64,000 bases of DNA from Candidatus Sulfopaludibacter sp. SbA3 (GCA_945890485.1 CAMDCN010000005.1:248001-312000); one strand, 5' to 3'. Counted from the stretch's first letter, positions 37,203 through 53,217 are shown. Program-made: numbers and translations. The notes: generated from the letters alone by a model not told the origin.

Positions 37203-37313
37203 CAGGTTCGCTTAGCAGGCTAGCAAGTCGAAGTAATTCATTAGGATGGCACTGCCCCTGCCCGATTGTCCACCTATTCCACCTCCCTGCTGGAGCGTAT
37301 GGCAGAATCAGGT

Positions 37314-38555: not shown

Positions 38556-39748
38556 ACAGCCCGCCGGGCTGCGGCCGGAATCTTCCACTCCTTGGGCCAG
38601 CCAGCCGCAAATGGCGAAGCGAACGAACCTTGGTTATTGATCCAGACGACCGCCTTCACTTGGGCCAGAATCTCCGGATTTCGCGCCATCTCCCGGAAAG
38701 CATGGTCGGTGTGGCCGTCGAAGCGAAGGAGAGCCACCGGTTGGTTGAGGTAGCGAGACAGCCAAGCGCTGAAAGTCGTGCCAGGCGCAGCGCCGTAATC
38801 GGTGAAGCTGTCGCCAATCACAAGGATGGGTGCCTTGGCCGCCGGTTTTACCGGGGCTCCTTGCATGGTGCTGACCATTCGGCAACTGATCTTACGCCGG
38901 GGTGTGACGGCCGCTTGTTGTTGCGGCGTCAGATATTTGGCCAGCGAGGCCGGCGCGTCGTAGGAAGTCGCCATGTCGACGTACATCTCAGGACGGGCCA
39001 AGGATTGCTGGACGATGGGTAGCCGGCGCAAGTGTTGGGAAACCATTCGGGCGGCGATCCTGTGGGCGGCCGGTCCCCAGTGCGTATCCGAAACCAGCAC
39101 AATGCCGGATTCGCCTGCGCGCCGGGCATTGAGAAGGGAGGGGAGTACGTCTACCACTTCGACATCTCTCTCAATCAGGTGCTTTAGAATGGCGCGGGCC
39201 TGGGAAGAGACGATTTCATGCGCGGGGATGAGAGACGCATCTTCAACCAAACCGGCTGGATCGATGTTTGGCGGAGTCGGGCCAGGCACGAAAATCATCT
39301 CAATGCCTTGCTGCCGGATCCATTTGGAAGCAGCCTCGATAATCGGAAGCGCCACGGAGCCGGCGACGAGATCCTTCAAGATCGTGTATGCGCCGGTGTG
39401 GCCTGCCGAAACCTCCGTCAGTTGGTCGCCGGAGTAGTAGCAGCCCGGGCGGCCAAAGAGTGGAACCAGCGGCGCTTTATCATCCGGACGGGCAGGGGAG
39501 GCTGTCTTTTTATCAAACGATTCTTTCGCTCGAATCCAAAGCGCTTCGCGGAAAGGTCGAAGCGAAGCGAAGTACGCCTGCCAATCCCCATTCGCATTCG
39601 CCTTGCATTCGGTCTCCAACGCCTCTAAGGATTGAGCCATCGCCGCGGCCCTCGTCGTCGGGGGAGGTACTGCGCCGCTTAGCGCGGGAGCGCATAAAGA
39701 GCCAGCGAGCATCTCGCGACGCGACAAATGAAAACGAGGCACTGTCAT
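38552..39748 (-). CDS. AlgX/AlgJ-like SGNH protein with Tat-type signal (second copy)
   Basis: 398 residues. MTVPRFHLSRREMLAGSLCAPALSGA is a twin-arginine signal. The acid-base motif is D221-T-H223-W and the serine block G312-D313-S314-F. The line MIFVPGPTPPNIDPAGL and the VEVVDVLPSLLNARR segment correspond to regions of the neighbouring homologue, and both proteins open with a similar LEALETECKANANGDWQAY-type stretch (LSGIESECKQGGNGDWRKW in the plus-strand one). They are therefore recently related paralogues. Converges with the neighbour, sharing four bases at the stops. Presumably also a glycan O-acetyltransferase component. Confidence 0.8.
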   Translation of the reverse strand: MTVPRFHLSRREMLAGSLCAPALSGAVPPPTTRAAAMAQSLEALETECKANANGDWQAYFASLRPFREALWIRAKESFDKKTASPARPDDKAPLVPLFGRPGCYYSGDQLTEVSAGHTGAYTILKDLVAGSVALPIIEAASKWIRQQGIEMIFVPGPTPPNIDPAGLVEDASLIPAHEIVSSQARAILKHLIERDVEVVDVLPSLLNARRAGESGIVLVSDTHWGPAAHRIAARMVSQHLRRLPIVQQSLARPEMYVDMATSYDAPASLAKYLTPQQQAAVTPRRKISCRMVSTMQGAPVKPAAKAPILVIGDSFTDYGAAPGTTFSAWLSRYLNQPVALLRFDGHTDHAFREMARNPEILAQVKAVVWINNQGSFASPFAAGWPKEWKIPAAARRAV

Positions 39749-39787
39749 CAGGCGGTATCCTAGCCGCTAGTTTATCCCAGTCGCCTG

Positions 39788-39813
39788 TTTGGCAACCGTG
39801 GATTCCCGCCAAA
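39788..39813. promoter_or_regulatory. Inverted repeat in divergent AlgX/J - GT-C region
   Basis: TTTGGC (39788-39793) and GCCAAA (39808-39813) are perfect 6-base arms around a 14-base centre, in the 118-base gap between the divergent minus-strand AlgX/J-like gene and the plus-strand GT-C gene. Possible regulator site controlling either direction; chance is not excluded. Confidence 0.3.
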
Positions 39814-39819
39814 TCAAGC

Positions 39820-39841
39820 TAGAATAAGGGAGGATTCCGGC
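39820..39841 (+). promoter_or_regulatory. Promoter-like block upstream of first GT-C gene (repeated at 41931)
   Basis: TAGAAT followed by AAGGGAGGATTCCGGC ends 25 bases before the ATG at 39867. The same block with a 3-base deletion lies before the second GT-C gene at 41931-41949. TAGAAT could be a -10 hexamer; no good -35 is seen at 16-18 bases. Confidence 0.35.
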
Positions 39842-39866
39842 GCCTCGTCCAGCGTTTTCTTGGTAA

Positions 39867-41882
39867 ATGACCTTTCTAATCGACTTTTTCAAGAAGTGGA
39901 CGCTGTTCCACTGGTTGCTTGCGGGATTGCTGCTGGCCAGTGGTTCAGCCCGATTCATCACGTTGTCCGATCGGGCGACGCACTGCGACGATAACGGATT
40001 TCTGTTGAACGCTTTGCCGGCGCTGTCTGCCTTCGAGGCCGCCGACAACGTTTCCAAGGCATGGACGTATGCGCCCGGCCAGTTCTTGGTCGGCTATCCC
40101 TTCTGGAGCAAGGCCACCACCTTCGAAGCGGTCACCCGGGCCGCCAGAATGCCGAGTGCCGTTGCGGCCACCGCCGGAACCGTTTTGTTCTTCTTTTTAA
40201 TTCTGCTACTGCAGCGTCAATTCGCTTGGACCAGCCACGGTGGGGCCTTCACGGCGATGCTGGCGGCACTGAGCATGCGGTTGATGGTGGAGAGCCAGCA
40301 GGGCTATAGCTATGCGGTGACGTATCTGTTCGCGGCCTTGCAGATTCTCGTGATCGTCTGGTTCGTCCAAAACGGCACGGCGTGGACCCGTTGGCTGTAT
40401 GCGATGGGCGCCGCGCTGGCCGTGGGGCTGGTTGGGTTGTTCTTCAGCTATCAGTTGCTTTTTCCGTCCGCTGCCGCCGGCCTGACTTGCGCGATCGGAG
40501 CGGGGCGCGAACTCTTCCGGCGCGAAAAGCAGGCCCCGCCATGGCTGGGCTCTGTTGGCGCGGCCTGCGCCGGGGTGGCCGGGTTCGGCGCGGCCTATTT
40601 CTGGCTTTGGAAGGCTTATCTCGAAGTGCTGTTGAAAAATGGGACGAATGTTCCTCCCTGGGCGCAGTTCGAGATCATTCGTTGGAGTGCCGCCGAAGGG
40701 CTAACTGGCTACCTGAGCGCCATTGCCACAAAGGTGGTCCTACTCTTTAGTTTTCTCACCGCACCGATTTGGCCAGCGCTCCTGGGGGCGACCGCTCAAT
40801 TGCTCTGGGGTGGGGCGATGTTTCTACTCGCCGCGGCCGGTTTCCTGATCGGTTTGCGCAGCTCGGATGCGACTCGGCGGGCTCTGGCACTCTACGGCGG
40901 TCTCATGCTGATGCTTATGCTGATGGCGAACCTGGCCGGTCAGATTCCGTTGGGCGTTACCCGGCACAGCTTCATCCTGTTTGTGCCGGTGTTAGGCCTG
41001 CTTCTAGTTGCGGAACTGCACTTCAGCAACACTCCCTCGTCCCGGCGGCGCTGGATCCTTGCCGCCGCCGCCGGACTCTTGCTCTTCTACGCTCGCTTTG
41101 ATGAATTCAATGCGATGACCGCGAACCAGTTCGATGTTGCCCGCGTGAGTAAGGAGGTCTTGGCCCGCCGGCCTCTCTCTCTGGTCGCCCTGGATTGCAC
41201 TTGGGATCCGCGGATCGCGCAAGTGGTTTCGAAAGGTTCGGCATTCCCCTGCGGGATTGTGGAGAACGCGTCGGCCGCAATCCGTACGCTGGAAGCCACC
41301 TCGGAAGGCGGAACAATGCTGCTAACCAGCCATCGTGGCGATCCCCTGACGGCGGTGGCGGCAGAACTGCAGTTGCACCCGGACTGGAAGACAGAACGCA
41401 TTATTGCGATTGAGCCCCGTGGTTCCACGGAGCCAATCGGGATGGTGAATGGCGGAAATGGCTTCTTCTTAGCTGGAATCACTCGTCCGATGAAGCTCGC
41501 CACCGGATGTGCCGTCATTTTTGGGTCCGGTTGGGGTGTCCGCGAAGGAACTGCCGATTGGTGGCGGTGGACCGATCACGGTGGTCCCATTACCTTCGTC
41601 AGCTCTCAACCGGAGAAGCTGACGATAAAGGGCCTCGTCGTCAGCACAACCCCGAACAACACCCTGAGGCAGCGCCTCGACGGGAACCCGCTCGCAAACG
41701 CTGCGCTGAGTCCCGGCACTGTCCTCGACTTGGGTATGGATGTCGCCGGCGCGCCCCGAGAACTGGAACTGCTCAGCGCCAACGCGGGGATCAAGCTTCC
41801 GCCCGATACCAGAACGTTTGCAATGCAGGCGCGCAATTGGAAAGTGACTGGGGAAAAGTCCGGTCCGTGCGAAATTCGCTAG
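39867..41882 (+). CDS. GT-C glycosyltransferase-like membrane protein with C-terminal soluble domain
   Basis: 671 residues. About a dozen membrane helices start at residue 13. The first outside loop has D41-D42 after HC (ATHCDDNG), where GT-C enzymes such as PMT and ArnT carry their acidic catalytic residues. The C-terminal about 190 residues are soluble. The last about 110 (from GWGVREGTADWWRWTDHGG through PPDTRTFAMQARNWKVTGE to CEIR) align with the end of the next protein and are not part of typical GT-C enzymes. It may transfer a sugar from a polyprenyl-phosphate donor to a glycan or protein. It is followed by its paralogue after 89 bases. Confidence 0.72.
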   Translation: MTFLIDFFKKWTLFHWLLAGLLLASGSARFITLSDRATHCDDNGFLLNALPALSAFEAADNVSKAWTYAPGQFLVGYPFWSKATTFEAVTRAARMPSAVAATAGTVLFFFLILLLQRQFAWTSHGGAFTAMLAALSMRLMVESQQGYSYAVTYLFAALQILVIVWFVQNGTAWTRWLYAMGAALAVGLVGLFFSYQLLFPSAAAGLTCAIGAGRELFRREKQAPPWLGSVGAACAGVAGFGAAYFWLWKAYLEVLLKNGTNVPPWAQFEIIRWSAAEGLTGYLSAIATKVVLLFSFLTAPIWPALLGATAQLLWGGAMFLLAAAGFLIGLRSSDATRRALALYGGLMLMLMLMANLAGQIPLGVTRHSFILFVPVLGLLLVAELHFSNTPSSRRRWILAAAAGLLLFYARFDEFNAMTANQFDVARVSKEVLARRPLSLVALDCTWDPRIAQVVSKGSAFPCGIVENASAAIRTLEATSEGGTMLLTSHRGDPLTAVAAELQLHPDWKTERIIAIEPRGSTEPIGMVNGGNGFFLAGITRPMKLATGCAVIFGSGWGVREGTADWWRWTDHGGPITFVSSQPEKLTIKGLVVSTTPNNTLRQRLDGNPLANAALSPGTVLDLGMDVAGAPRELELLSANAGIKLPPDTRTFAMQARNWKVTGEKSGPCEIR

Positions 41883-41971: not shown

Positions 41972-44266
41972 ATGTACTTAATCGTAATTCCGGCGCTGTT
42001 TCTCCTGATCGTTTTTTTTAGTCTGAGAAATCGAGGCGGCTTTGGTAGCCGCGAGGCTATTCTGCTCACATTGGGCGCCGCGGGCGTTCTGGTAGTGACG
42101 AGCACGGAGTTGCTCAGTTTTATGGGTTGGATCAACCGCTGGGCGATCGCCATTTCCTGGCTGCTCTTCGGAATCCTCGGATTGTGGTTGCTGCGGCGCG
42201 TGGCGCGGGTAGAAAAATCAGAAGTCGCTGCCCGTGAGAATACGGAAGTCGGGCTGTTCTGGGGGATCGGCGGAGTAATACTGGCCTTGGTCGCCCTGAC
42301 GGCGCTAAACGCAGCGCCCTCCACCTGGGACGCGATGACCTATCATATGGCCCGCGTGGTCCGATGGTCGTTACAAGGAAGCCTGCAGTTTTATCCCACC
42401 AATGAGCCGCAGCAGTTGTTCCAGCCCCCCTTGGCGGAGTTCTTCATGCTCCACCTGTTCCTGCTGGCTGACTCGGACCGTTTAGTGAATCTGGTGCAGG
42501 TGATCGGGTTCGGCGGATGCGCCGTCGGAGCATCGTTGGTCGCGCGCGAGCTTGGGGCACGGGCAACGGGGCAGGCGTTCGGCGCCTTATTGGTTCTGAC
42601 TTTGCCGCAAGGCATTCTCCAAGCTTCCGGGGCGAAGAATGACTGCTCCCTGGCGCTTTGGCTGATTGCGATGGTCTATGCGGCACTCCGCTTCCTGCGG
42701 ACCGAACGTCGCTTGTGGCTTCTGGCAACCGGCGTCTTTCTGGGACTGGCCGTGCTGACGAAAGGGACGAGCTACGTCTACGGCCCCGGACTGCTGCTGG
42801 GGGTCGCCGGAATGGAGTGGGCCTCCGTGAAGCGCAGCTGGCGGCAACTTTCGATTGCCATGGCCGTCTTAGTTCTGGCGATCAATGCGGGTCACTATGG
42901 GCGCAACATCAAGTTATACGGCTCCCCGCTGGGAAATGGCTATGCGGACGCTGCCAGAAACTACTCATTCCGAAACGAAACCATCAATGTGAAAGTGCTG
43001 TGGGGGAACATCTGGCGTAACCTGGGACTTCATGCCGGCACGCCTGTCCCGTCGTGGAACGCCGCGCTGCAAGCTTCGGCTGAGTCGGTAATTCGAATGA
43101 TGGGTGAAGACCCACAGAACCCGAAGGCTCTTTGGTATGGCAGCCGATTTGCCATTCCGGATCCGGCCCTGCGGGAGAGTGCGGGGGCAAACCCACTGCA
43201 CATGGTGCTCGCGATTGGGAGCATTCTCTGGGTGGTCCTGCGTCGCAGAAAATTCAACCGTGAGCTTCTGTGGTACGCGACCGGAACTTCCGTGGCGTTT
43301 CTGTTGTTCTGCTTACTCCTGCGGTGGCAGCCGTGGCACACCCGGTTGCATTTCAGCTGGTTTGTCGCCACGGCGCCGCTGGCCGCGTGTCTGTTCGATC
43401 GTATGGCTTCCAGGGCTTTGCTCGGGACGATAGCGGGAGTCTTCGTGATCTGGGCAGCGCCAGCGGCAGTCCAGAATCAGGCGCGTCCGCTAGCCTACGG
43501 CGCCAGCGTTCTGAGTGCTCCCTGGAAGGAAAGTCTGTTTGCTGACGCACCGCCGTTTCGATCGAGCTTCGAATCCATCGCCAAAAAAATTATCGCGAGT
43601 CCATGCCGGGATATCGCAGTGGATTCGTCGCAACTGATTTACCTCTATCCGCTCTACGCCTTGCTGGATCCTCTGCATAACAATATGCGGATTCACGAAG
43701 TAGAGGTTGCCAACGAATCGCGCTCGACCGGTGACGCCTCCACTCGAGGTTGTGCGACCGTGTGTTTGGCCTGCGCCAATGTGGCTGCGAATAAAAACAC
43801 GGTTCTGGGGAAAGACGGTTGGTGGTCTGACAAGTCGGGGGACATTATCCTGTATTCGAGCCCAACTGGCGGTATCCTCCGCGAAGGTTGCGGCGTGACC
43901 TTTTCCGACGGTTGGTACGCGCGGGAAAGCTCAGGCCCAACCTGGTGGCGATGGACATCAAAGGGCGGAAAAATCACCGTCACGGCGTCGGACGCAGGCA
44001 AACTGCAACTCACCAGCCCGTTGATCAGCGTCCCGAAGGACAACACCGTCTCCATGCGATGGAACGGCAAGCCGCTGCCCGACATTGCCGTCAAAGGCTC
44101 CACCCTGCTGGATCTACAACTCGACGCTGTCGCCGGACCCAACACCTTGGAAATCGAGAGTCTGAAGCCGGGTGAGCCGATACCGCCGGATACCCGCACC
44201 TTCGCATTGCAGATTCGAGAGATGCAGATCAAAGGGCAGAAAGTGGGGGTCTGTGAAATCCCCTAA
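41972..44266 (+). CDS. GT-C glycosyltransferase-like membrane protein, paralogue with the same C-terminal domain
   Basis: 764 residues. Multiple membrane helices begin at residue 3. The first large periplasmic loop carries STW-D120-AMTY-H125, the WDxMxYH pattern of GT-C family enzymes, followed by VRWSLQG and FQPPLAEFFMLHLF. From about residue 635 a soluble C-terminal part (GWYARESSGPTWWRWTSKGG to PPDTRTFALQIREMQIKGQ, ending CEIP) matches the end of the preceding protein in order and spacing. Likely transfers sugars in surface-glycan assembly. It overlaps the aldolase gene by 14 bases, so it is tied to the sugar cluster downstream. Confidence 0.75.
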   Translation: MYLIVIPALFLLIVFFSLRNRGGFGSREAILLTLGAAGVLVVTSTELLSFMGWINRWAIAISWLLFGILGLWLLRRVARVEKSEVAARENTEVGLFWGIGGVILALVALTALNAAPSTWDAMTYHMARVVRWSLQGSLQFYPTNEPQQLFQPPLAEFFMLHLFLLADSDRLVNLVQVIGFGGCAVGASLVARELGARATGQAFGALLVLTLPQGILQASGAKNDCSLALWLIAMVYAALRFLRTERRLWLLATGVFLGLAVLTKGTSYVYGPGLLLGVAGMEWASVKRSWRQLSIAMAVLVLAINAGHYGRNIKLYGSPLGNGYADAARNYSFRNETINVKVLWGNIWRNLGLHAGTPVPSWNAALQASAESVIRMMGEDPQNPKALWYGSRFAIPDPALRESAGANPLHMVLAIGSILWVVLRRRKFNRELLWYATGTSVAFLLFCLLLRWQPWHTRLHFSWFVATAPLAACLFDRMASRALLGTIAGVFVIWAAPAAVQNQARPLAYGASVLSAPWKESLFADAPPFRSSFESIAKKIIASPCRDIAVDSSQLIYLYPLYALLDPLHNNMRIHEVEVANESRSTGDASTRGCATVCLACANVAANKNTVLGKDGWWSDKSGDIILYSSPTGGILREGCGVTFSDGWYARESSGPTWWRWTSKGGKITVTASDAGKLQLTSPLISVPKDNTVSMRWNGKPLPDIAVKGSTLLDLQLDAVAGPNTLEIESLKPGEPIPPDTRTFALQIREMQIKGQKVGVCEIP

Positions 44267-45299
44267 CGAAACTCCGTCGACGCTGCCAAAACTCGTCACG
44301 GAGTTGGCGAGCTGGTCCGCACGATACGGCGCCGACCGGATGCTAACGCAGGGCGCCGGTGGAAACACCTCCGTGAAGGATGGTGATTGGCTCTGGGTCA
44401 AGGCCTCCGGCGCATGGCTGGAGCACGCGGAGGAACGCGAAATATTCGTCCCAGCACCCGTCGCCACCATCCTCGCCGGACTGAGCGCCAACGAAGACCG
44501 GAAGGCCGAATGGACGACCCCGGGCGGTCGGCTGCTGCGGTCCTCCATCGAGACCAGTCTGCACGCGGTGGTGCCTGACCGTTGGGTATTTCATCTCCAT
44601 ACGGTGGCATCCATGCTTTGGTCAGCTATTGACGGCGGGCGGACGGCCGTGGCCGACCGGCTGCAGGGGCTCCCGTGGGAGTGGGTACGGTACGACCGCC
44701 CCGGTCTGCCGTTGACCCGGGCAATCGTCGAACGGCTCGGCAGCAAGCCACAAGTGCTGCTTCTCGAGAATCATGGTCTGGTGGTGAGCGGGGCTTCTTG
44801 TCCCGAAGTCGATGAACTGCTCTGGGATACCGAACAACGCCTGGCGTTGCCGGCTCGTCCCGTGCCAGCCGTTCACTTGGAGGCCCTCCGCGCCGCCGCG
44901 CCGGCGGGCTACCATCCTGCCTTGTACGCCGACGCCCACTGGTGCGCCACCGACTCAGATTCGTTTGAGGCCGCCACCATGGGGATGCCCGCTCCCGACT
45001 TCGCCGTCTTCCTCGGTGCACGGTTAGTCGGCGTCCGGAGCGGCCAATCAATTGCCGCAGCCGCGGATCTCTACCGGCGCGAGTTTGGCCTGGAGCCAGC
45101 GGTGTTCCTGGTCGAAGGCCACGGCGCCTTGGTGCGCGACTCTGTCGGCGACAACGGCGAGCAGATGTTGGAGGCTCTCGGACGGATGCTGGTTCGGCTT
45201 CCGGAGAACGCTAAGCTAACCTATCTCCCGATCCCGGAAATTCTCGGGCTGCTAGACTGGGATGCGGAAAAATACAGGCAATCGCTGATAAAGGAATAG
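44253..45299 (+). CDS. Class II aldolase/adducin family protein
   Basis: 348 residues from GTG 44253, preceded by a G-rich Shine-Dalgarno-like stretch, overlapping the upstream gene by 14 bases. The fold's signature residues are visible: GAGGNTS (34-40) for phosphate binding, SSI-E100, VFHLHT with H114 and H116, and LEN-H174-G, giving the zinc-binding set (two early His and the later His). The C-terminal about 150 residues (PDFAVFLGARLVGVRSGQ, VFLVEGHGALVRDSV) are an addition beyond the roughly 220-residue class II aldolases. Predicted metal-dependent aldolase or isomerase of a sugar phosphate; the product would feed the adjacent isomerase and nucleotidyltransferase steps. Substrate is inferred. 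Confidence 0.82.
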   Translation: MKSPNETPSTLPKLVTELASWSARYGADRMLTQGAGGNTSVKDGDWLWVKASGAWLEHAEEREIFVPAPVATILAGLSANEDRKAEWTTPGGRLLRSSIETSLHAVVPDRWVFHLHTVASMLWSAIDGGRTAVADRLQGLPWEWVRYDRPGLPLTRAIVERLGSKPQVLLLENHGLVVSGASCPEVDELLWDTEQRLALPARPVPAVHLEALRAAAPAGYHPALYADAHWCATDSDSFEAATMGMPAPDFAVFLGARLVGVRSGQSIAAAADLYRREFGLEPAVFLVEGHGALVRDSVGDNGEQMLEALGRMLVRLPENAKLTYLPIPEILGLLDWDAEKYRQSLIKE

Positions 45300-45302
45300 T
45301 TA

Positions 45303-46967
45303 ATGCAGATCATTGTCCCGATGTCGGGTTTCGGGGAGCGATTCCGTCGGGCCGGCTATAGCGTACCGAAACCACTGATCGAGGTTGACGGCAAGCCAAT
45401 CATCGCGCACGTGATCGATCTCTTTCCCGGTGAGACGGATTTTGTCTTTATCTGTAACCAGGATCATCTGGATCACCCTGGGTACCGGATGGCTGAGATC
45501 CTGCAACACTACTGTCCCACCGGCCGGATCGCCGGCATCGCGCCGCACAAGCTCGGGCCTGTATACGCAGTCAGCCAGGTGGCGGACCTGATCGACGATG
45601 GCCGCCCGGTGATTGTCAATTACTGCGATTTCACGGCCTACTGGGACTGGTCTGATTTCCGTGCTTTTGTGGCGGAAACCAAGTGCGATGGCTGCATTCC
45701 GTCGTATCGCAACTTCCATCCGCATATGCTGCAGTCCACTTCGTTTGCCTATACCCGCAACGAGGACCTTTGGGTCACCGCGATCCAGGAGAAGCAACCC
45801 TATACGGACCGTCCGCTGGAGGAGTTCGCCTCCAGCGGCACTTACTATTTTTCGTCAGGCGCGCGGATGAAACGCTGCTTCCGCGAGACGATGGAGCGCC
45901 AACTCGCCCTGAATGGCGAGTACTATGTCAGCTTGGCTTACCTGCCGCTGATTGAAGCCGGCGACGCGATTGCCATTTACGAATTGCAGCATTTCATGCA
46001 ATGGGGCACTCCGGATGACTTGGCGCAGTATCTACGGTGGTCCGCGGTGTTCCGAAAATTGGCGGAAGATCAGCAGCAGCCGGAGCAGTTTCCGCGAGTC
46101 GGAAGCGTGGTGCTGCCAATGGCTGGCGCCGGGCAGCGATTTGCGGATCAGGGCTACGAGCTACCCAAGCCGCTGATACCGGTTAGCGGACGCCCAATGG
46201 TTGTCCAAGCGGCTCACGACCTGCCTGGGGCCATGGAGTATGCGTTCGTACTGCGCCGCGACTTGCCCCATTTGGCTGAGATTCAGCGTGCTCTCTCGGA
46301 TAACTTCCCCGCGTGCACTCAGGTGGTTTTGGAACAGTTGACTGACGGTCAGGCCCGCACCGCACTGTTCGGTCTTGACGCGGTTGATGAATCCGCGCCC
46401 GTCACCATTGGCGCCTGTGACAACGGCATGCTCTACGATCGGGCGGCGTTTCAGCAACTGCAGTCGGATCCCGCAATCGACGTGATCGTGTGGGGCATGA
46501 CCGGCCATCCCGGAGCGGCGCAGCATCCTCGCATGTACGGTTGGATCGACGCTGAGGACGGCTGGGTGCGCGAGGTGTCCGTGAAAGTGCCGCTCAAAAA
46601 TCCGGCCACCGACCCGGCCGTCGTCGGCACCTTCACCTTTCGCCGCGGCAGCGATTTCCGGGCGGCCACCGAGCGAATGATCGCCCGAAATGCTCGCGTG
46701 AACGGTGAACTCTACATCGATACCTGCATCAATGATGCGATCGCCATCGGACTCCGTTGCCGTCTCTTCCTGCTCGATTACTACATCGGCTGGGGTACGC
46801 CGGACGACTTGCGAACGTTTGAATACTGGCAGAGCTGCTTCCATAAGTGGGCCGGTCATCCCTACCGCCTCGAATCGGATGCCCGGGTTGATCCTGCCGC
46901 GTTGTCCGAGTTGTCGGCTCGCTTCGCGCCCGTCAAGCCGGCCCGGCCAGCGAGGATTCCTCGATGA
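45303..46967 (+). CDS. Fused tandem sugar-phosphate nucleotidyltransferase
   Basis: 554 residues; an AAGGAA-type ribosome binding site precedes ATG 45303. The protein is two homologous nucleotidyltransferase domains in a row. Half one opens with PMSGFGERFRRAGYSVPKPL (6-25) and ends with FMQWGTPDDL (231-240). Half two opens with PMAGAGQRFADQGYELPKPL (272-291) and ends with YIGWGTPDDL (about 494-503). Both keep the G-x-G-x-R-F and the PKPL Lys loop that hold the nucleotide. A metal-binding Asp lies at YCDF (D109) in half one and GACDNG in half two. Usual members are single-domain, about 250 residues. Two different sugars, or a chimeric dimer, are possible. Confidence 0.85.
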   Translation: MQIIVPMSGFGERFRRAGYSVPKPLIEVDGKPIIAHVIDLFPGETDFVFICNQDHLDHPGYRMAEILQHYCPTGRIAGIAPHKLGPVYAVSQVADLIDDGRPVIVNYCDFTAYWDWSDFRAFVAETKCDGCIPSYRNFHPHMLQSTSFAYTRNEDLWVTAIQEKQPYTDRPLEEFASSGTYYFSSGARMKRCFRETMERQLALNGEYYVSLAYLPLIEAGDAIAIYELQHFMQWGTPDDLAQYLRWSAVFRKLAEDQQQPEQFPRVGSVVLPMAGAGQRFADQGYELPKPLIPVSGRPMVVQAAHDLPGAMEYAFVLRRDLPHLAEIQRALSDNFPACTQVVLEQLTDGQARTALFGLDAVDESAPVTIGACDNGMLYDRAAFQQLQSDPAIDVIVWGMTGHPGAAQHPRMYGWIDAEDGWVREVSVKVPLKNPATDPAVVGTFTFRRGSDFRAATERMIARNARVNGELYIDTCINDAIAIGLRCRLFLLDYYIGWGTPDDLRTFEYWQSCFHKWAGHPYRLESDARVDPAALSELSARFAPVKPARPARIPR

Positions 46968-47680
46968 CGCCCAGGCTCTCGGTGGTCATTCCTGCCTACA
47001 ATGAAGCCAAGAATCTACCGCTGCTGCTCGAACGGGCGGCGGCATCGCTCGCCCGGCCCGATGTCGAACTCCTGATCGTCAACAATGGCTCCAAAGACGA
47101 TTCGGAAGCTGTACTGGCCGAACTACTGCCCCGCTATCCGTTCGCCCGCAGCGTCAATGTGCCCGTCAACCAAGGGTATGGATTCGGCATTCTGAGCGGC
47201 CTTCGCGCCGCCGCGGGTGAAGTGCTGGCCTGGACCCACGCCGACAACCAAACCGATCCCGGCGACACCATCCGAGGCTTGGAACGCTTTGACAAGGCCG
47301 CCGATCCCACGCGGCTTTTCGTCAAAGGCCGGCGGTCCGGCCGTCCCCCCGCCGATGTCCTCTTCACGTTTGGGATGTCGGTGTTCGAAACGGTGCTGAT
47401 GGGCAAGTCGATGTCGGATATCAACGCGCAACCCACCATGTTTCACCGTAAGTTTTGGGAGACCTGGACACGCCCTCCGCATGATTTCTCCCTCGATCTC
47501 TACGCCTACTATCTGGCCCGGCGGGCGGGCTTGACCGTCGAACGGGTGCCTGTGCACTTCGGGCAACGGGCGCATGGCGTGTCCCATTGGAACGTCAACT
47601 GGCAGGGCAAAGTGAAGTTCATCCGGCGTACGCTGGACTATAGTTTTCAACTCAAGCGAGAGCTAAAGGAGCTGGCGTGA
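46964..47680 (+). CDS. Family 2 glycosyltransferase
   Basis: 238 residues, overlapping the previous stop by four bases. GT-A fold: LSVVIPAYNEAKNLPLLLE (6-24), LLIVNNGSKDDS, and LAWTHADNQTDPGDT, in which HAD stands at the DxD position. An SDINAQPTMFHRKFWE stretch forms the acceptor side. Length suggests a soluble or membrane-associated dolichol-phosphate-mannose-synthase-like enzyme without its C-terminal membrane helices. Predicted to transfer the sugar nucleotide made by the preceding gene to a lipid or glycan acceptor. The GDPD-like gene starts on its stop codon. Confidence 0.88.
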   Translation: MTPRLSVVIPAYNEAKNLPLLLERAAASLARPDVELLIVNNGSKDDSEAVLAELLPRYPFARSVNVPVNQGYGFGILSGLRAAAGEVLAWTHADNQTDPGDTIRGLERFDKAADPTRLFVKGRRSGRPPADVLFTFGMSVFETVLMGKSMSDINAQPTMFHRKFWETWTRPPHDFSLDLYAYYLARRAGLTVERVPVHFGQRAHGVSHWNVNWQGKVKFIRRTLDYSFQLKRELKELA

Positions 47681-48264
47681 ACATCATTCGCCACCGGAGA
47701 AATACGCGCAGCGAACTGGAGCAGACGCCGCGCCAATACGGAATCGAGATCGATATCCGCAGCCAAGGCAGTGACCTGATCCTCCACCACGACGCCTTCG
47801 TGCCGGGCGAACGCTTTGACGACTGGCTCGACTCGTTCCAGCACGGAACGCTGATCCTGAACGTTAAGGAGGAAGGCCTCGAAGACCGCGTGCTCAGTCT
47901 CATGAAGCAACGGGGAATCGACGACTTCTTCTTCCTGGATCAATCGTTCCCCTTTCTCATCAAGACCGCCCGCACGGGGGAGAGCCGCTGCGCCGTCCGC
48001 ATCTCTGAATTTGAGTCCATTGAAACCTGCATGTCTTTGGCCGGGATGGTCGACTGGGTTTGGGTGGATTGCTTCACGAAATTTCCCTTGTCGACCAGCG
48101 ATGCGCTCCGGCTTCGTGAGGCGGGTTTCAAGCTCTGCCTCGTTTCGCCGGAACTCCAAGGCCGCACGGCGCCGGAAGAGATCGCCTCCATGCGCTCGTT
48201 GCTCGCCGAGCGCGGCATCACGGCAGATGCCGTATGTACTAAGACTCCAGAGCTATGGGGCTAA
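47677..48264 (+). CDS. GDPD-like TIM-barrel protein
   Basis: 195 residues with GTG start overlapping the previous TGA (GTGA). It has pieces of the glycerophosphodiester phosphodiesterase pattern: an early H6, GIEIDIR (E24, D26), LILHHDAF (H37-H38) and LILNVKEEG. Full GDPD enzymes are about 250 residues; here the HRG motif is RHRR and the ENT triad is weak, so activity could have changed. VDWVWVDCFTKFPLS provides a late strand. In this cluster it might cleave a phosphodiester-linked intermediate or be a sugar-phosphate binding barrel. It overlaps the next gene by 10 bases. A role in the pathway is inferred from position only. Confidence 0.6.
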   Translation: MNIIRHRRNTRSELEQTPRQYGIEIDIRSQGSDLILHHDAFVPGERFDDWLDSFQHGTLILNVKEEGLEDRVLSLMKQRGIDDFFFLDQSFPFLIKTARTGESRCAVRISEFESIETCMSLAGMVDWVWVDCFTKFPLSTSDALRLREAGFKLCLVSPELQGRTAPEEIASMRSLLAERGITADAVCTKTPELWG

Positions 48265-50339
48265 CGCTGCGCCAGTTGGCAACGAACCCGTTGTTCGTGG
48301 CCGGTGTTCTGATTCGGCTGTTGCTGCTCATTGTCGCCGCACCCGATGTGCAGAGCAAATGGTTCGTTCCGTTTCTCCGCGAAGCGCTGGTCCATCCGTC
48401 CATTGATCCCTGGTCGACTCACTTGGCGCTCGGCGGCGATCCGATGGGTTTCCCCTACGGGCCCGTGATGTACATTCTCCACGCCCCGTTGGTTTGGGTC
48501 GGCGATTTGATCGACCAGGCGGTGGGCACGGATTGCTACGCCGGCATGGGCTTTGGATTGACGATTCTCGGCTTGGACGTTGGTTGCCTGCTCTTGCTCG
48601 AAAAGCTCCTGAAGGTGCCAGCCCATCGGCTTCTCCTTCCCTACTGGCTCTCGCCCATCGTCATCTACATCTGCTACTGGCACGGGCAGACGGACATGGT
48701 GCCGGTGTACCTGCTTCTGTCGTCGCTGTACTTTCTCCAGCGCCTGCGTGTCGAGTACGCCGGTGCAGCGTTGGCCCTGGCCATGGCCGCCAAGCTGAGC
48801 ATGCTGTTGCCGCTGCCATTCCTGTGCGTCTACTTTCTTCGCAACAAGCGGAACCGTTGGGGATTAAGCCGGTTTTTGGCGTGGACCGTCGGCGGCTGGC
48901 TGCTGATTCAAGGGCCGTTCCTGTTCTCCCCGGGCGTCCATCGCATGGTCCTGCAGAGCCCGGAGATTCAGAAGATATACCGTGTCGCGATTTCGATTGG
49001 CGACAATCACTCCGTCTATATCCTGCCGCTCACCTATCTTCTGCTGGTGTATGTCGCATGGCGCATTGGCCGAATGAGCTTCGACCTCATGTTTGCGTTC
49101 CTGGGCATGTCCTTTTTCCTGGTGCTACTACTGGCGCCCGCCTCCATCGGGTGGTTCTTGTGGACCGTTCCGTTTCTAGTGGCGCATCAGGTATCGGGCG
49201 GACCGTCCTCCGTGCTTCTGGTCGCCACCTTCTCTGGACTTCTAATCGGCTTTCATCTGGTCAACTCCACCGGGGCGTACGTTCGATGGATCGATCTCGA
49301 TTTGACCGGTCCGTTGTTGCAAGGTGTCGCCGCCAACGGGAAGCACCTGCAGTCTCTCTGGCTCACCGCCATGACCGGCGTCGGCGGCGTCCTCAGTATG
49401 CGGATGCTGCGCGAAGGGGTACAGCGGAATGACTACTACCGCCTCAGCCGGCGTCCTCTGGCGATAGGCATCGCCGGTGATTCTGGCGCCGGCAAAGACA
49501 CATTGAATCGGGCCCTGGCTGGCCTGTTCGGCGACGATTCCGTTGTCAATGTATCAGGTGATGACTACCACCTTTGGGATCGGCATGCGCCCATGTGGCA
49601 AGCATTCACGCATCTGAATCCGCAGGCCAACGACCTCATGGCGTTCTCTCGCGATGTGCTCGCGCTGATGGATGGCAAGCCGATCTTGTGCCGCCACTAC
49701 GACCATAAGGCCGGAAGGTTCACGAAGGCGGCGGTCGTACAGAACAACGACGTAATTCTCGTCAGCGGATTGCACGCGCTTTATGTCCCGGCCCTCGCGG
49801 AACGTTTCGATGTGCAAATCTTTCTGGCGATGAACGAGGAATTGCGCCGGTATTTTAAGATCCGCCGCGATGTGTATGAGCGTGGGCACGACCCGGTCAA
49901 GGTCCTTGAGTCCATTGAGCGACGCCGCGCGGATACCGAGCGCTTCATCAATCCGCAGGAAGCCATAGCTGGTCTCGTCTTTTCGCTTGAGCCCACCATC
50001 CCGGAGCAATTGGATCTGCGGCGGGCCGAAGAACCCGCGCTGCATCTGCGCGTCCGCATCCGGCGGGCCCTCTACTATGACCGCTTGGTGCGCGTCCTGA
50101 TTGGACTTTGCGGGCTGCATGTCGATATTGAAATGCTCGGCCCCAACGAAGGCGTCACCTTGATGATCGATGGCGAGATTGGCAAGGAAGACATCGCGCT
50201 CGCCGCGGGGCAATTGGTTCCTGAAGTGGAAGAGTTACTGGCAGTCGAGCCCAATTGGGAGGACAACATGATGGGAATCATGCAGCTGATTACGCTGTTT
50301 CATCTGACCGAGGTCATTCGGGCGAGGGCGGCGGAATGA
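48255..50339 (+). CDS. GT-C-like membrane protein fused to a uridine-kinase/phosphoribulokinase-like domain
   Basis: 694 residues. Residues 1 to about 385 are a polytopic membrane domain (LFVAGVLIRLLLLIVAAPD; the first loop has DPWSTHLALGGDPMGFPYGPVMYIL, then YWHGQTDMVPVYLLLSSLYFL), like mannosyltransferase-type GT-C proteins. Residues about 398-694 are a P-loop kinase of the uridine kinase/phosphoribulokinase type: G408-DSGAGKDT-416, VNVSGDDYHLWDRH (D for base catalysis), KPILCRHYDHKAGRF, and VILVSGLHALYVP. I know of no common protein joining these. It may phosphorylate a sugar on the inside and use it as, or hand it to, a donor for membrane transfer. The stop overlaps the HAD gene. Confidence 0.8.
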   Translation: MGLTLRQLATNPLFVAGVLIRLLLLIVAAPDVQSKWFVPFLREALVHPSIDPWSTHLALGGDPMGFPYGPVMYILHAPLVWVGDLIDQAVGTDCYAGMGFGLTILGLDVGCLLLLEKLLKVPAHRLLLPYWLSPIVIYICYWHGQTDMVPVYLLLSSLYFLQRLRVEYAGAALALAMAAKLSMLLPLPFLCVYFLRNKRNRWGLSRFLAWTVGGWLLIQGPFLFSPGVHRMVLQSPEIQKIYRVAISIGDNHSVYILPLTYLLLVYVAWRIGRMSFDLMFAFLGMSFFLVLLLAPASIGWFLWTVPFLVAHQVSGGPSSVLLVATFSGLLIGFHLVNSTGAYVRWIDLDLTGPLLQGVAANGKHLQSLWLTAMTGVGGVLSMRMLREGVQRNDYYRLSRRPLAIGIAGDSGAGKDTLNRALAGLFGDDSVVNVSGDDYHLWDRHAPMWQAFTHLNPQANDLMAFSRDVLALMDGKPILCRHYDHKAGRFTKAAVVQNNDVILVSGLHALYVPALAERFDVQIFLAMNEELRRYFKIRRDVYERGHDPVKVLESIERRRADTERFINPQEAIAGLVFSLEPTIPEQLDLRRAEEPALHLRVRIRRALYYDRLVRVLIGLCGLHVDIEMLGPNEGVTLMIDGEIGKEDIALAAGQLVPEVEELLAVEPNWEDNMMGIMQLITLFHLTEVIRARAAE

Positions 50340-51094
50340 GCCTGGAGATTCGTCAACCGCAGCGCTTGCAAGAGCGGCCCGCCGTCGTGTTGTTCGATCT
50401 GGACAACACTCTCTACGCCTACGACCCCGCGCATGCCGCCGGAATGTCGGCCACAAAGAAGAAAGCTTGCCGCCTCGTGGGTTGCACCGACGAAGCGTTC
50501 GATGAGTTCTTCGATAAAGCCCGGCAGGACGTGAAGGAGCAGTTGGGCAGCAATGGCGCGGCCCACAGCCGGTTGTTGTACTTCCATCGCATGGTGGAAC
50601 TGCTGGGCATGAGGTCACAGCCGCTCCTCGCGCTTGATCTGGAGCAGACCTACTGGCGTACCTTTCTAGGCGCTTCGCAGCTATTTCCGGACGTCAAAGA
50701 GTTTTTGGATGAATTGCGGAGCGCCGGAGTGATCACGGGTTTGGTGACGGACCTCACCACACAAATTCAATTCCGCAAGCTCATCTATTTTGGGCTGGAC
50801 CACTCGTTTGACTACGTTGTGACGTCCGAAGAGGCCGGATCGGAAAAGCCATCGGCGGCCCCATACGCCCTGATTCGTCGAAAGCTCGGCGGAAACACCG
50901 GAACAATCTGGATGATCGGCGATAACGGAAAAACCGACATCGCGGGATCGCGCGAACATATGAACGCAGTCACTCTACAAAAGCGCCATTCCGGCGTGAA
51001 GATTGAGGCTGGCGAGCGCGCGGCGGACCTTGTATTCGATGATTTCGGCGATTTGCGGCGTGTCTTCTCAAAATTCGGGGCAGACCGTGGGTAA
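50336..51094 (+). CDS. HAD-family phosphatase (pyrimidine 5'-nucleotidase-like)
   Basis: 252 residues from ATG 50336, overlapping the kinase-fusion stop (ATGA); the frame is open upstream but there overlaps the fusion gene. HAD motifs are complete: D21-L-D23-N-T25 (motif I), GLVTDLT (motif II Thr), SEKPSAAPYALI (motif III Lys), and GDNGKTDIAG (motif IV). The helical cap is C1-type. The subgroup is that of 5'-nucleotidase/beta-phosphoglucomutase-like phosphatases, not the histidinol-phosphatase-like GmhB family. It probably removes a phosphate from a sugar bisphosphate of the adjacent pathway. Followed by the GmhA-type gene after 29 bases. Confidence 0.85.
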   Translation: MSLEIRQPQRLQERPAVVLFDLDNTLYAYDPAHAAGMSATKKKACRLVGCTDEAFDEFFDKARQDVKEQLGSNGAAHSRLLYFHRMVELLGMRSQPLLALDLEQTYWRTFLGASQLFPDVKEFLDELRSAGVITGLVTDLTTQIQFRKLIYFGLDHSFDYVVTSEEAGSEKPSAAPYALIRRKLGGNTGTIWMIGDNGKTDIAGSREHMNAVTLQKRHSGVKIEAGERAADLVFDDFGDLRRVFSKFGADRG

Positions 51095-51123
51095 GTGCTA
51101 TCCTAAACATAACAATCAGTTTT

Positions 51124-51684
51124 ATGAATTTTTTTGAGAACTACCGCGCCGACCTGATCGCCAGTCTGAACACGCTCGACATCGCTGGGATCGAGAAGGC
51201 GGTCGCCATTTTCGCCGACGCTCGCGCGACCGGCAAGACGATCTTTCTGGGTGGGAACGGTGGCAGCGCCGCTTCCGCTTCGCACTTTGTGTGCGACATG
51301 GTCAAGGGCGCCAGCTTCGGCCGCACCAGCCGTTTCCGCATCATCTCGCTGAACGAAAACATCGGCACTTTGACGGCGTATTCAAACGACGTCGGCTATG
51401 ACGTAATCTTCACGGAGCAGTTGAAGAACTTCGCCAAACCGGGCGATGTCTTTATGGCGATCAGCGGTTCGGGCAACTCGCCTAACGTCGTCAAGGCCAT
51501 GGAATACGCCAATCAGATTGGCTGCCAGACCATCGGGCTTTCCGGACGGAATGGCGGCAAGCTGGCCGAACTGGCACAGTTGAATATCCATGTGCCCAAT
51601 CAGCATATGGGGCGCATTGAAGACGTCCATATGATGACGTGCCACATGATCGCCTACTACTTCATGGAAACCGCGGCCGAATAA
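51124..51684 (+). CDS. GmhA-type SIS-domain isomerase (sedoheptulose-7-phosphate isomerase-like)
   Basis: 186 residues. SIS-fold motifs: IFLGGNGGSAASASHFVCDMVKG (phosphate-binding Ser cluster), ISLNENIGTLTAYSNDVGYDVIFTEQL, and DVFMAISGSGNSPNVVKAM. The C-terminal helix has RIEDVHMMTCHMIAYYF with the EDxHxxxxH-type His pair near the active site of GmhA. Length is normal for GmhA, which converts D-sedoheptulose 7-phosphate to D-glycero-D-manno-heptose 7-phosphate, the first step of NDP-heptose synthesis. The sugar could be another ketose phosphate. It ends the cluster; the next gene begins 6 bases later. Confidence 0.88.
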   Translation: MNFFENYRADLIASLNTLDIAGIEKAVAIFADARATGKTIFLGGNGGSAASASHFVCDMVKGASFGRTSRFRIISLNENIGTLTAYSNDVGYDVIFTEQLKNFAKPGDVFMAISGSGNSPNVVKAMEYANQIGCQTIGLSGRNGGKLAELAQLNIHVPNQHMGRIEDVHMMTCHMIAYYFMETAAE

Positions 51685-51690
51685 CAATGC

Positions 51691-53217
51691 ATGGATCCCT
51701 GGATCAATAGGATCGCCGAGCTTCACCGGCTCCCGGAGTGGTCCGGAGAACCTTTGATCCAGACACACATCTCGGCGATCCTGCTGGGGAAGGATCGCGT
51801 TCTGAAGCTGAAGAAGCCAGTCAACTTCGGCTTCCTGGACTACACGACACCGGAGAAACGGTTCGCCGCCTGCCGGGCCGAAGTGGACCTGAATAGCCGG
51901 TTAAGTCCGGAGATATACCTGGGCGTCGAGACCCTTGGCGCCGGCGAGTCGCTCGATTATGGCGTTCTGATGAAGCGGCTCCGCCGGGAACGCATGTTGG
52001 ACGAACTGGTCCAGCGCGACGAGGCGTCCGAAGCGATGATCCGGGACATCGCCGAAACGCTGGCCCGCTTTCACGACCGGGCCCGGCGGGGGCCTGACGT
52101 GGACCGTTATGGGCGGCTCGCTGTCATTGAGGAGAATTGGCGCGAGAACTTTCAGCAGACAGAAGGAGCTTTGTGGGCGGATATCGCGCCACGCGAACGA
52201 GAGCTGATTCAGCGCTGGGTACGGCAGGAGCTGGCACAGCATGCGGCGCTGTTTGAAGCACGGGTGACTGGCGGCCATATCGTGGATGGTCATGGCGATC
52301 TGCGCTGCGAAAGTATCAACGTCGCCGAACGGATCTACATTTTCGATTGCATCGAGTTCAACGAGCGGTTCCGCTGCGGAGACATCGCCAGCGAGGTGGC
52401 CTTCCTTGCCATGGATCTCGACGCTCGCGGCCGGCCGGACCTTGGCTACTACTTTGTCGAAGAGTACCTGCGGCAGCGTCCGGACGACGGTCTGCTGGCG
52501 CTGCAGCCGTTCTATCGTTGCTATCGCGCTTTCGTTCGCGGTAAGGTGGCCGGGTTCCGCTTGGCGGAGCCAGAGTTCAGCGCGGAGGAGAAGCGCAGAG
52601 CGCAGGCTGAGGCGATCCACTATTTTGAAGTGGCCCGGCGGTACGCCGACCGGCTTCGCGACAAGTCGTTGCTCGTGGTGGCTGGCCTGTCGGGATGCGG
52701 CAAGACCGCGATTGCCCGATCCATCGCCGGCGAATTGGGGCTGCGGCTGATCTCGACGGATAGCGTCCGTCGGGATCTCTTCGGCGCGGCGAAAGCGCCT
52801 GCTGGATATGGTGAAGGCGTCTATGGTCGGGAACAGTCGGAGCAAACCTATCGGACCATGTTTGAGCGAGCTGGCCAACTGTTGCGGCTCGATCGAGGCG
52901 TCGTCTTGGATGGGACGTTTTCTGGCGAGAGCCACCGCGCAGCGGTAGCGCGAATCGCCGACGCCGCCGGCGCACGGCTTCGTGTCGTCGAATGCACGCT
53001 GGCTCCGGAGCGCGTGCGGGAGCGCCTGGCGCGGCGTGCTGCGCGTGGCGATGGGCTCTCCGACGCAAACTGGGATATCTATCTGCGGCAGCTTGCCGCC
53101 CATCGCCCGTGGGGCGGAGGCGCGCTTCGGCTGGATACCGCCGAAGCGCTGCCATCCGCCACGCATCGGGCAACCGATTGGCTGCGGGGTGTGGCTAAGG
53201 TACCTGGAGCTTCTTAA
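51691..53217 (+). CDS. Aminoglycoside-phosphotransferase-like domain fused to a P-loop kinase
   Basis: 508 residues. The N-terminal half (about 1-320) is an APH-like kinase: VLKLKKPVNFGFLDYTT (nucleotide Lys), HGDLR (201-205, catalytic Asp203), and IYIFDCIEFNERF with the metal-binding Asp. The C-terminal half (about 325-508) is an AAA/zeta-toxin-like P-loop kinase, with Walker A GLSGCGKT (332-339), DSVRRDLFGAAKAP and GVVLDGTFSGESHR. The COG2187 plus COG0645 combination is known in many bacteria. Substrate is unknown. It follows gmhA by 6 bases, so it may belong to the sugar operon or be a neighbour. Its stop overlaps the cytochrome gene by 23 bases. Confidence 0.87.
   Translation: MDPWINRIAELHRLPEWSGEPLIQTHISAILLGKDRVLKLKKPVNFGFLDYTTPEKRFAACRAEVDLNSRLSPEIYLGVETLGAGESLDYGVLMKRLRRERMLDELVQRDEASEAMIRDIAETLARFHDRARRGPDVDRYGRLAVIEENWRENFQQTEGALWADIAPRERELIQRWVRQELAQHAALFEARVTGGHIVDGHGDLRCESINVAERIYIFDCIEFNERFRCGDIASEVAFLAMDLDARGRPDLGYYFVEEYLRQRPDDGLLALQPFYRCYRAFVRGKVAGFRLAEPEFSAEEKRRAQAEAIHYFEVARRYADRLRDKSLLVVAGLSGCGKTAIARSIAGELGLRLISTDSVRRDLFGAAKAPAGYGEGVYGREQSEQTYRTMFERAGQLLRLDRGVVLDGTFSGESHRAAVARIADAAGARLRVVECTLAPERVRERLARRAARGDGLSDANWDIYLRQLAAHRPWGGGALRLDTAEALPSATHRATDWLRGVAKVPGAS

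Follow-up and report, generated by a model that had tools for sequence, protein, structure and literature searches.

A conserved bacterial gene cassette with a possible pentulose bisphosphate route to surface glycans

A compact group of genes occupies the plus strand of a 64,000-nucleotide stretch of DNA from Candidatus Sulfopaludibacter sp. SbA3 (GCA_945890485.1 CAMDCN010000005.1:248001-312000), referred to here as the window. From the sequence alone, this group had earlier been read as an undescribed, heptose-like nucleoside diphosphate (NDP)-sugar pathway assembled from non-canonical enzyme families. Translation of the window returned all seven genes of that sequence-only reading, on the plus strand and where it had placed them: a class II (Zn) aldolase of the RhaD/YuxG N-domain type (44253-45299), a tandem nucleotidyltransferase (NTase; 45303-46967), a GT2 glycosyltransferase (46964-47680), a compact 195-aa protein with a GDPD fold (47677-48264), a GT-C/kinase fusion (48255-50339), a HAD phosphatase (50336-51094) and a GmhA-like SIS isomerase (51124-51684). 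The compactness claimed for the cluster is borne out by the coordinates, the junctions from aldolase to isomerase consisting of overlaps of 4, 4, 10 and 4 bases and gaps of 3 and 29 bases, the latter being the largest. The aldolase gene starts with a GTG that overlaps the stop of an upstream gene (41972..44266, plus strand) for a polytopic GT-C-like protein (Pfam PMT_2, 41 bits), a companion of the cassette. Pfam and NCBIfam uphold the family assignments of the class II aldolase (Aldolase_II), the tandem NTase (NTP_transf_3/NTP_transferase), the GT2 (Glycos_transf_2), and the PRK/uridine kinase, HAD and SIS proteins; the GDPD assignment comes from an AlphaFold2 (AF2) model and Foldseek.

Gene content and conservation of the cassette

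The tandem NTase was scanned against genome contigs of 84,980 species, and 183 relatives were confirmed. The best 80 of these 183 were mapped together with the window and 3 plasmids, giving 84 loci, and hidden Markov models were built from the window and plasmid proteins. Gene counts refer to the 60 of the 84 loci with ample flanking sequence, the NTase itself being the query. The aldolase was matched at all 60, the kinase fusion and the HAD at 59 each, the GDPD at 58, the GT2 at 54, the small membrane protein GtrA (with a model from 2 sequences) at 42 and the SIS isomerase at 2. The kinase and membrane halves form a single open reading frame (ORF) at 73 of the 77 loci with a kinase match; of the other four, three are in broken pieces and one is cut at a contig end, and these are left out of the 73-sequence kinase set. 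For profile scans, subsets were picked from the protein alignments for diversity (30 of 83, 32 of 73, 29 of 73, 26 of 77, 28 of 76 and 27 of 72 sequences).

In the stretch available, three loci (L113, L041, which has a short right flank, and L146 of genome G453) contain only the aldolase and the NTase. All three genomes encode the kinase fusion elsewhere, together with GT2, GDPD and HAD; this second set is a complete operon in G453 and G1139 and is spread over two contig ends in G1140. Since the split genomes keep both parts, the genes act together and fall into two units, aldolase plus NTase and GT2-GDPD-kinase-HAD. Distances between the core proteins correlate at 0.61-0.90 across 61 loci, a measure that is inflated by shared ancestry. 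Pseudomonadota, Acidobacteriota and Nitrospirota all have members with this gene set, in an arrangement far beyond chance, and it is well supported that the set represents a single co-inherited pathway.

The proposal of a compact sugar-activation gene set built from unusual families was thus sound: the set is real, conserved and, judging by literature searches, undescribed, with no description of it in any title or abstract among the open PMC papers searched. One paper that matched the search terms, PMC12421898, was discarded, its matching passages being about other genes. The comparison of gene neighbourhoods that the sequence-only reading had proposed as support likewise shows a conserved cassette, although its spread is patchy rather than vertical and the SIS isomerase does not belong to the conserved set.

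A second polytopic protein (at least 400 aa and at least 5 hydrophobic segments) borders or lies within 41 of the 60 ample-flank loci. These proteins belong to varied families, and in many cassettes one from a different family takes the position that the PMT_2 protein has in the window; among 7 scanned against Pfam, one was a GT87 member and 6 were without a match. Methyltransferases are found within or beside some cassettes.

Enzymes of the cassette

The fusion protein consists of an N-terminal membrane part (48255..49439) and a C-terminal phosphoribulokinase (PRK)-like domain (49440..50339) that is predicted to be cytosolic. The window kinase scores 181 bits against a PRK profile (NF005655) and 77 bits against uridine kinase (NCBIfam). 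Among the family members scanned, the PRK profile matched 32 of 32, as did uridine kinase, more weakly at best. A profile search of the PDB gave E 3.5e-59 for PRK and 9.2e-28 for Thermus uridine kinase; one chain, 9qkn, is labelled a uridine kinase in the PDB profile table and titled a cyanobacterial PRK in the Foldseek list. In the best 50 Foldseek rows the kinase model aligns with PRK chains over 303-355 columns and with uridine kinases over 182-199, and the PRK fold is present with its C-terminal domain included (TMt 0.77 to 9qkp and up to 0.78 across PRKs).

The PRK-type His and Arg of the motif DDYH..(W/Y)DR are present in 16 of 16 cassette rows of the alignment; none of the 9 uridine-kinase rows has them. 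Substrate-site residues are conserved in nearly all of 73 homologues (D436 in 72, H439 in 71, R443 in 70, and R538, D539 and R543 in 71 each); we equate them with D42, H45, R49, R168, D169 and R173 of Rhodobacter sphaeroides PRK, its ribulose 5-phosphate-binding and catalytic residues. In sequence and modelled fold, the domain is therefore shown to be PRK-like in character, and not uridine-kinase-like or hexose-kinase-like; a plain uridine kinase is ruled out by profile, fold and residues together. The sequence-only reading had called it URK/PRK-like rather than of GHMP or HldE type, which agrees with its PF00485/PRK-like classification by Pfam and NCBIfam. With known PRKs (PF00485; cyanobacterial 6hzk and 9qkp, Methanospirillum 5b3f) the cassette kinase has in common the PRK domains, the P-loop and the His/Arg substrate motifs. 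It differs from them in its fusion to a polytopic GT-C-like domain, in forming a clade of its own (28-31% identity to five PRK rows), in its score below the cut-off and in its location in a glycan cassette. A PRK inside a RuBisCO operon (L133) is among the closest plasmid proteins outside the cassette, with 31% identity over 273 columns.

By our count, the AF2 model has 12 membrane helices in the first 395 residues of the fusion, and these together with a positively charged loop place the kinase on the cytosolic side. W53, G144 and D147 of the membrane part are conserved, and a PDB profile search gave a weak match to glycosylphosphatidylinositol mannosyltransferase 1 (E 5.5e-6).

The best family of the window HAD is NF053830, ribulose-1,5-bisphosphate 5-phosphatase, with 182.5 bits over profile positions 4-233; the next family scores 83.5 (NCBIfam). 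NF053830 matches 29 of 29 HAD members scanned, its rank as best family having been seen for the window protein only, and the next match to this profile in the same genome has 38 bits. Neither a CbbY nor a GmhB model is among the 25 listed of 28 NCBIfam matches to the window HAD. A CbbY-type HAD is accordingly not supported, and the absence of GmhB from these matches agrees with the earlier view that the phosphatase is not GmhB.

In the aldolase, E100, H114, H116 and H174 are at least 97% conserved across 77 homologues; we take them to be the zinc ligands and the catalytic Glu, with roles as in FucA and RhaD. Families of the RhaD_aldol-ADH type match 26 of 26 aldolase members and the ribulose-1-phosphate aldolase family matches 1 of 26. 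Against its best curated family the window protein scores 59.7 of 1014 bits, below the cut-off, these models being of fused aldolase/dehydrogenase proteins. By these comparisons the protein is nearest to ketose-1-phosphate aldolases, and a ketose-1-phosphate would be its expected substrate.

Both halves of the NTase retain the N-terminal GxGxRF...PKP motif and a conserved Asp across 83 sequences, and their relatives in the PDB are 6jq8 (first half) and 4evw (second half). Neither Pfam nor NCBIfam has a match to the 195-aa protein, and its best sequence match in the PDB is at chance level (E 0.1). Its AF2 model (pLDDT 95.5) has solved GDPDs as best Foldseek matches (E 8e-7), and H6, E24, D26, H38, K64 and E65 are at least 97% conserved in 76 sequences.

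NTase and GDPD also occur together outside the cassette. The GDPD was matched in 25 plasmid records, many of them from close Rhizobium strains; every one of these holds an NTase match as well, and the kinase fusion was not matched in 22 of the 25. Because this pairing recurs without PRK, NTase plus GDPD looks like an older activation module with varied sugar supplies, to which the PRK-HAD-aldolase arm looks like the supply attached here. Loci L127-L132 carry modules of GDPD, HAD and NTase halves, often with WavE-type genes or else with other genes for polysaccharides (Rhizobium, Pseudomonas, Ruegeria and other plasmids). The NTase halves are homologous to those of the cassette, as is the small GDPD (E 3e-19 in L127 and L128). 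Unlike the cassette, these modules lack annotated genes for PRK and class II aldolase over the stretches examined, and the one HAD compared is distantly alike. They are possibly another undescribed polysaccharide precursor pathway.

The GT2 is probably a polyprenyl-phosphate sugar synthase like ArnC or dolichol-phosphate mannose synthase (DPM), without a membrane anchor. Its best NCBIfam match is of ArnC type (49 of 529 bits), and a PDB profile search returned chondroitin synthase first, then DPM (over most of the GT2 length) and ArnC. GtrA/GtrB/Gtr systems, which modify O-antigen, combine the small GtrA membrane protein, a DPM-like GT2 and GT-C proteins. At many loci the cassette likewise joins these three components and in this resembles O-antigen decoration systems; it differs in having a precursor pathway of its own, in the fusion of a GT-C protein to a kinase, and in the absence of GtrA or GT2 from some loci. 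Five Roseomonas-type loci (L042, L045, L048, L058, L080) carry cassettes without GT2 or GtrA matches. In L042, L058 and L080 the HAD is immediately followed by a shared protein of 385-391 aa, whose GT2 match is weak at best. The Roseomonas-type cassettes are possibly a variant that uses the NDP donor directly.

A possible pentulose bisphosphate pathway and its alternatives

The kinase, HAD and aldolase each show, on their own, a resemblance below the cut-off of the family concerned, and all three point to the same chemistry, the conversion of a ketose-1,5-bisphosphate to a ketose-1-phosphate. We therefore propose, with a probability of roughly 45%, that the genes form a mobile glycan-decoration cassette with its own sugar supply, based on pentulose (ribulose-type) bisphosphate chemistry. 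The PRK-like domain, as the cytosolic tail of a GT-C protein, would phosphorylate a pentulose-5-phosphate, most likely ribulose-5-phosphate, at C1 to give the 1,5-bisphosphate. The HAD would then take off the 5-phosphate, leaving pentulose-1-phosphate. By cleavage and re-addition with dihydroxyacetone phosphate (DHAP), the RhaD/YuxG-type Zn aldolase might fix the stereochemistry at C3/C4 or swap the aldehyde half. The tandem NTase would join the sugar-1-phosphate to a nucleotide, the GDPD performing some phosphodiester step tied to it. Finally, the DPM-like GT2 would load polyprenyl phosphate, GtrA, if present, would flip the product, and the GT-C proteins would attach the sugar to a surface glycan. 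At the window, the SIS isomerase would feed this sugar pool locally. Substrates, order, product and periplasmic transfer are inferred in this scheme; the product would presumably be either a pentulose activated by nucleotide and lipid or another sugar made from pentulose-1-phosphate.

A narrower version would make ribulose 1,5-bisphosphate (RuBP) a committed glycan intermediate: a membrane-tethered PRK and a RuBP 5-phosphatase would move the phosphate from C5 to C1, a retro-aldol/aldol reset of the pentulose stereochemistry would follow (for example D-ribulose-1-phosphate to a xylulose-1-phosphate), and the tandem NTase, with the small phosphodiesterase, would yield a nucleotide-activated ketopentose that passes by way of a polyprenyl carrier to surface glycans. 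This version we regard as speculative, and doubtful as it stands. Pentulose residues including xylulose are reported from several bacterial polysaccharides (in the part of PMC8707391 consulted), and xylulose is documented in bacterial glycans (likewise from part of PMC10919079). For the Yersinia enterocolitica O:10 cluster, the sections seen of PMC11380512 assign no gene to donor synthesis, and the gene list there contains no such cassette. Because what we saw of PMC8707391 and PMC11380512 names no gene for a xylulose donor, the link between the cassette and xylulose glycans is put forward as a hypothesis.

The closest described parallel is the non-carboxylating pentose bisphosphate pathway of haloarchaea, where the passages used of PMC9700705 have a phosphatase convert RuBP to ribulose-1-phosphate and a FucA-type aldolase interconvert the latter with DHAP and glycolaldehyde. 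There, too, a HAD of the RuBP 5-phosphatase family and a class II aldolase are encoded together (PMC9700705, same passages). According to them, however, RuBP is made from ribose-1,5-bisphosphate and degraded, whereas in the cassette a PRK-like kinase would make it and feed an NTase and glycosyltransferases; the cassette aldolase is moreover RhaD/YuxG-like and the haloarchaeal one of FucA type.

Several observations weigh against the proposed pentulose bisphosphate pathway. Both best-matching profiles fall short of their curated thresholds, the HAD with 182 of 330 bits and the kinase with 181 of 236. The cassette kinases form their own clade beside PRKs and uridine kinases (the fork has support of 82/87 and one branch is long), and the tree cannot root this clade because the type I PRK row is itself a long branch. 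For the aldolase, the best families match weakly over about half its length, and its best solved relative in the PDB is the uncharacterised 3m4r, followed by fuculose-phosphate and related aldolases. Averaged hydropathy of the aligned fusions has 11 membrane peaks, a count with which the kinase would face away from the cytosol; as the model has 12 helices, the topology is uncertain. Sugar NTases usually have an Asp in the C-terminal D-x-GTP motif, and this Asp is replaced in both halves here (QWGTP and GWGTP). Since a PRK yields a non-anomeric 1-phosphate, the NTase on this route would form something other than the usual anomeric NDP-sugar. The GDPD, for which the pathway offers no explained role, was not found at 3 of the 77 kinase-bearing loci (L092, L102, L114). 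Seven of 10 genomes queried, including five Roseomonas-type ones, gave no GT2 match at E 1e-40 or better, and the window locus has no match to the 2-sequence GtrA model; the polyprenyl route is therefore not universal.

A heptose product, as first suggested, is very unlikely, and as the general function of the cassette we reject it. In that scheme the isomerase would convert sedoheptulose-7-phosphate to heptose-7-phosphate, the kinase would add the 1-phosphate, the HAD remove the 7-phosphate and the NTase activate the sugar, with the aldolase giving a chain-elongated sugar. The succession of kinase, phosphatase and NTase is identical to that of ADP/GDP-heptose synthesis (GmhA, HldE or HddA, GmhB, HldE or HddC), and this part of the step logic stands. 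The window copy also has its GmhA relative 29 bases downstream of the HAD (126 bits to TIGR00441 gmhA, cut-off 209; E 5e-26 to phosphoheptose isomerases in the PDB), and the NTase of a putative 6-deoxy-heptose pathway is a distant relative of the first NTase half (E 4e-7). The isomerase, whose step would define entry into a heptose route, adjoins the cassette, however, at only 2 of 84 loci, namely the window and its close relative L038, where the SIS gene directly follows the HAD; it is a lineage-specific accessory. L038 has a short flank and lies outside the ample-flank 60, and another genome of the same genus (G435) has the same SIS-after-HAD arrangement. The second of the two SIS matches among the ample-flank 60, at L040, is weak (101 bits) and starts 2.6 kb before the NTase. 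In GmhA one Glu is catalytic, and the aligned cassette SIS seems to have Asp at its position.

Apart from lacking a conserved GmhA, the cassette has no PfkB/GHMP kinase, no GmhB-type HAD-III among the HAD matches listed and no HldE-C/HddC-type NTase (HddC, 18 of 300 bits); its kinase and HAD are nearest to ribulose-bisphosphate enzymes, and its aldolase is obligatory. We know of no role for an aldolase in NDP-heptose synthesis. Furthermore, contig C7 of the same genome carries adjacent genes for an HldC/GmhB-like fusion, GmhA and HldA, with a weak heptosyltransferase match, and rfaE domain II is found in this genome on C7 and C1 only. The C7 genes score just under their curated equivalog cut-offs (170 of 181.5, 175 of 209 and 335 of 345 bits, with 129 of 178 for the GmhB domain), so ADP-heptose-type is the safe name for this operon. 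The statement that no standard heptose genes are visible is thus true of the window and not of the genome, in which hddA and hddC were not searched for. Canonical heptose genes elsewhere, together with a cassette not conserved in related genomes, had been named as arguing against a heptose; such genes do lie elsewhere in the genome, yet the cassette is conserved. Taken together, the place of SIS outside the conserved set, the C7 operon and the HddC score indicate that heptose synthesis is not what the cassette generally does.

Among the other readings, the aldolase might act first, joining DHAP and an aldehyde to a ketose-1-phosphate that the NTase uses directly, with kinase and HAD engaged elsewhere, for example in aldehyde recycling or on another precursor. 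Consistent with this, the aldolase lies next to the NTase where the genes are split, both occur at all 60 ample-flank loci, and the aldolase resembles DHAP-dependent rhamnulose-1-phosphate aldolases. The split genomes nevertheless still encode kinase and HAD, which are hence not optional, and the bisphosphate chemistry is left unexplained; we consider this order of events unlikely. Less probable again is a kinase acting on a nucleoside, glycerate or a polyol, so that the cassette makes a cytidine diphosphate-polyol or similar activated alditol and the GDPD trims the product. PRKs and uridine kinases make up a broad superfamily, the NCBI names of homologues are uridine kinase for one and phosphoribulokinase for others, a phosphodiesterase belongs to the set, and GDPD and NTase are paired without PRK in other polysaccharide loci. 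The PRK-type residues and C-terminal domain are kept, however, and no alditol reductase was found among the conserved genes. It is least probable, to the point of being hardly credible, that kinase, HAD and aldolase break down or detoxify pentulose-5-phosphate to DHAP and glycolaldehyde while the glycosyltransferase genes are merely co-transferred. A HAD and a class II aldolase do work together in haloarchaea (pathway passages of PMC9700705), but the fusion of the kinase to a membrane domain at 73 of 77 loci, and the association in split genomes of HAD and kinase with GT2 and GDPD and of aldolase with NTase, speak against it. Carbon fixation was also considered. RuBisCO (PF00016) gave no match in 29 of the 31 cassette genomes or records searched, two of the 31 being plasmids only and completeness mostly not given, and RuBisCO-linked carbon fixation is therefore not the purpose in most carriers.

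If the pentulose bisphosphate pathway is correct, PRK-type chemistry would operate outside carbon fixation, in bacteria mostly without RuBisCO, and RuBP, otherwise known from carbon fixation and nucleoside salvage, would be the precursor of a surface sugar. A conserved and horizontally spread cassette, now vaguely labelled as uridine kinase, phosphoribulokinase, HAD hydrolase, class II aldolase and NTP transferase, would gain a testable function, and ketose or pentulose residues in bacterial glycans would gain a donor route. Even with another sugar, the cassette would define a dedicated pathway.

Distribution, mobility and neighbouring genes

The fusion is rare. Among 60 relatives, 2 have the tandem NTase, and in a sample of Acidobacteriota beyond the window, 1 of 395 genomes matches the fusion at E 1e-60. 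This match (G349) was rejected as a fusion, proving to be a stand-alone PRK-like ORF of 335 aa that lies 1.4 kb before a 668-aa ORF, by eye presumably a transketolase. Outside that sample, L038 and L101 are acidobacterial loci with the cassette. In the classes of G399 and G411, 4 of 369 and 3 of 289 genomes match, the centre genome being counted each time. By tblastn, plasmids of Azospirillum brasilense and Hirschia baltica proved to carry the same gene set, as did an IncR plasmid assigned to Escherichia coli. Horizontal spread is the simplest reading of this rare and patchy distribution, and plasmid carriage agrees with it.

The IncR plasmid (L036, NZ_CP145712.1) also carries IS26 and is recorded from an E. 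coli stool isolate; a second E. coli record with the cassette, NZ_JCAPUP010000005.1, is from a bullfrog isolate. A blastn query with the kinase-HAD portion of the plasmid copy (2,807 bases) matched 2 of 5,426 E. coli genomes, both on plasmids and 100% identical, while the window DNA gave no match to E. coli genomes at megablast sensitivity. A phage origin was rejected, with just one weak kinase match among 50,697 phage records.

Upstream of the cassette, the window (35748-41882) encodes an MBOAT acyltransferase on the minus strand, two convergent proteins with AlgX-like acetyltransferase domains and a 671-aa protein without Pfam or NCBIfam match; this region suggests an acylated extracellular polysaccharide. 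Six bases after the SIS gene, a 508-aa protein with APH-like and AAA_33 kinase domains is encoded at 51691-53217; no such gene was called next to SIS in the relative L038. Further downstream (54831-56450) lies a gene whose product belongs to the Cpn60/TCP-1 family (Pfam, 235 bits) and may be a divergent chaperonin.

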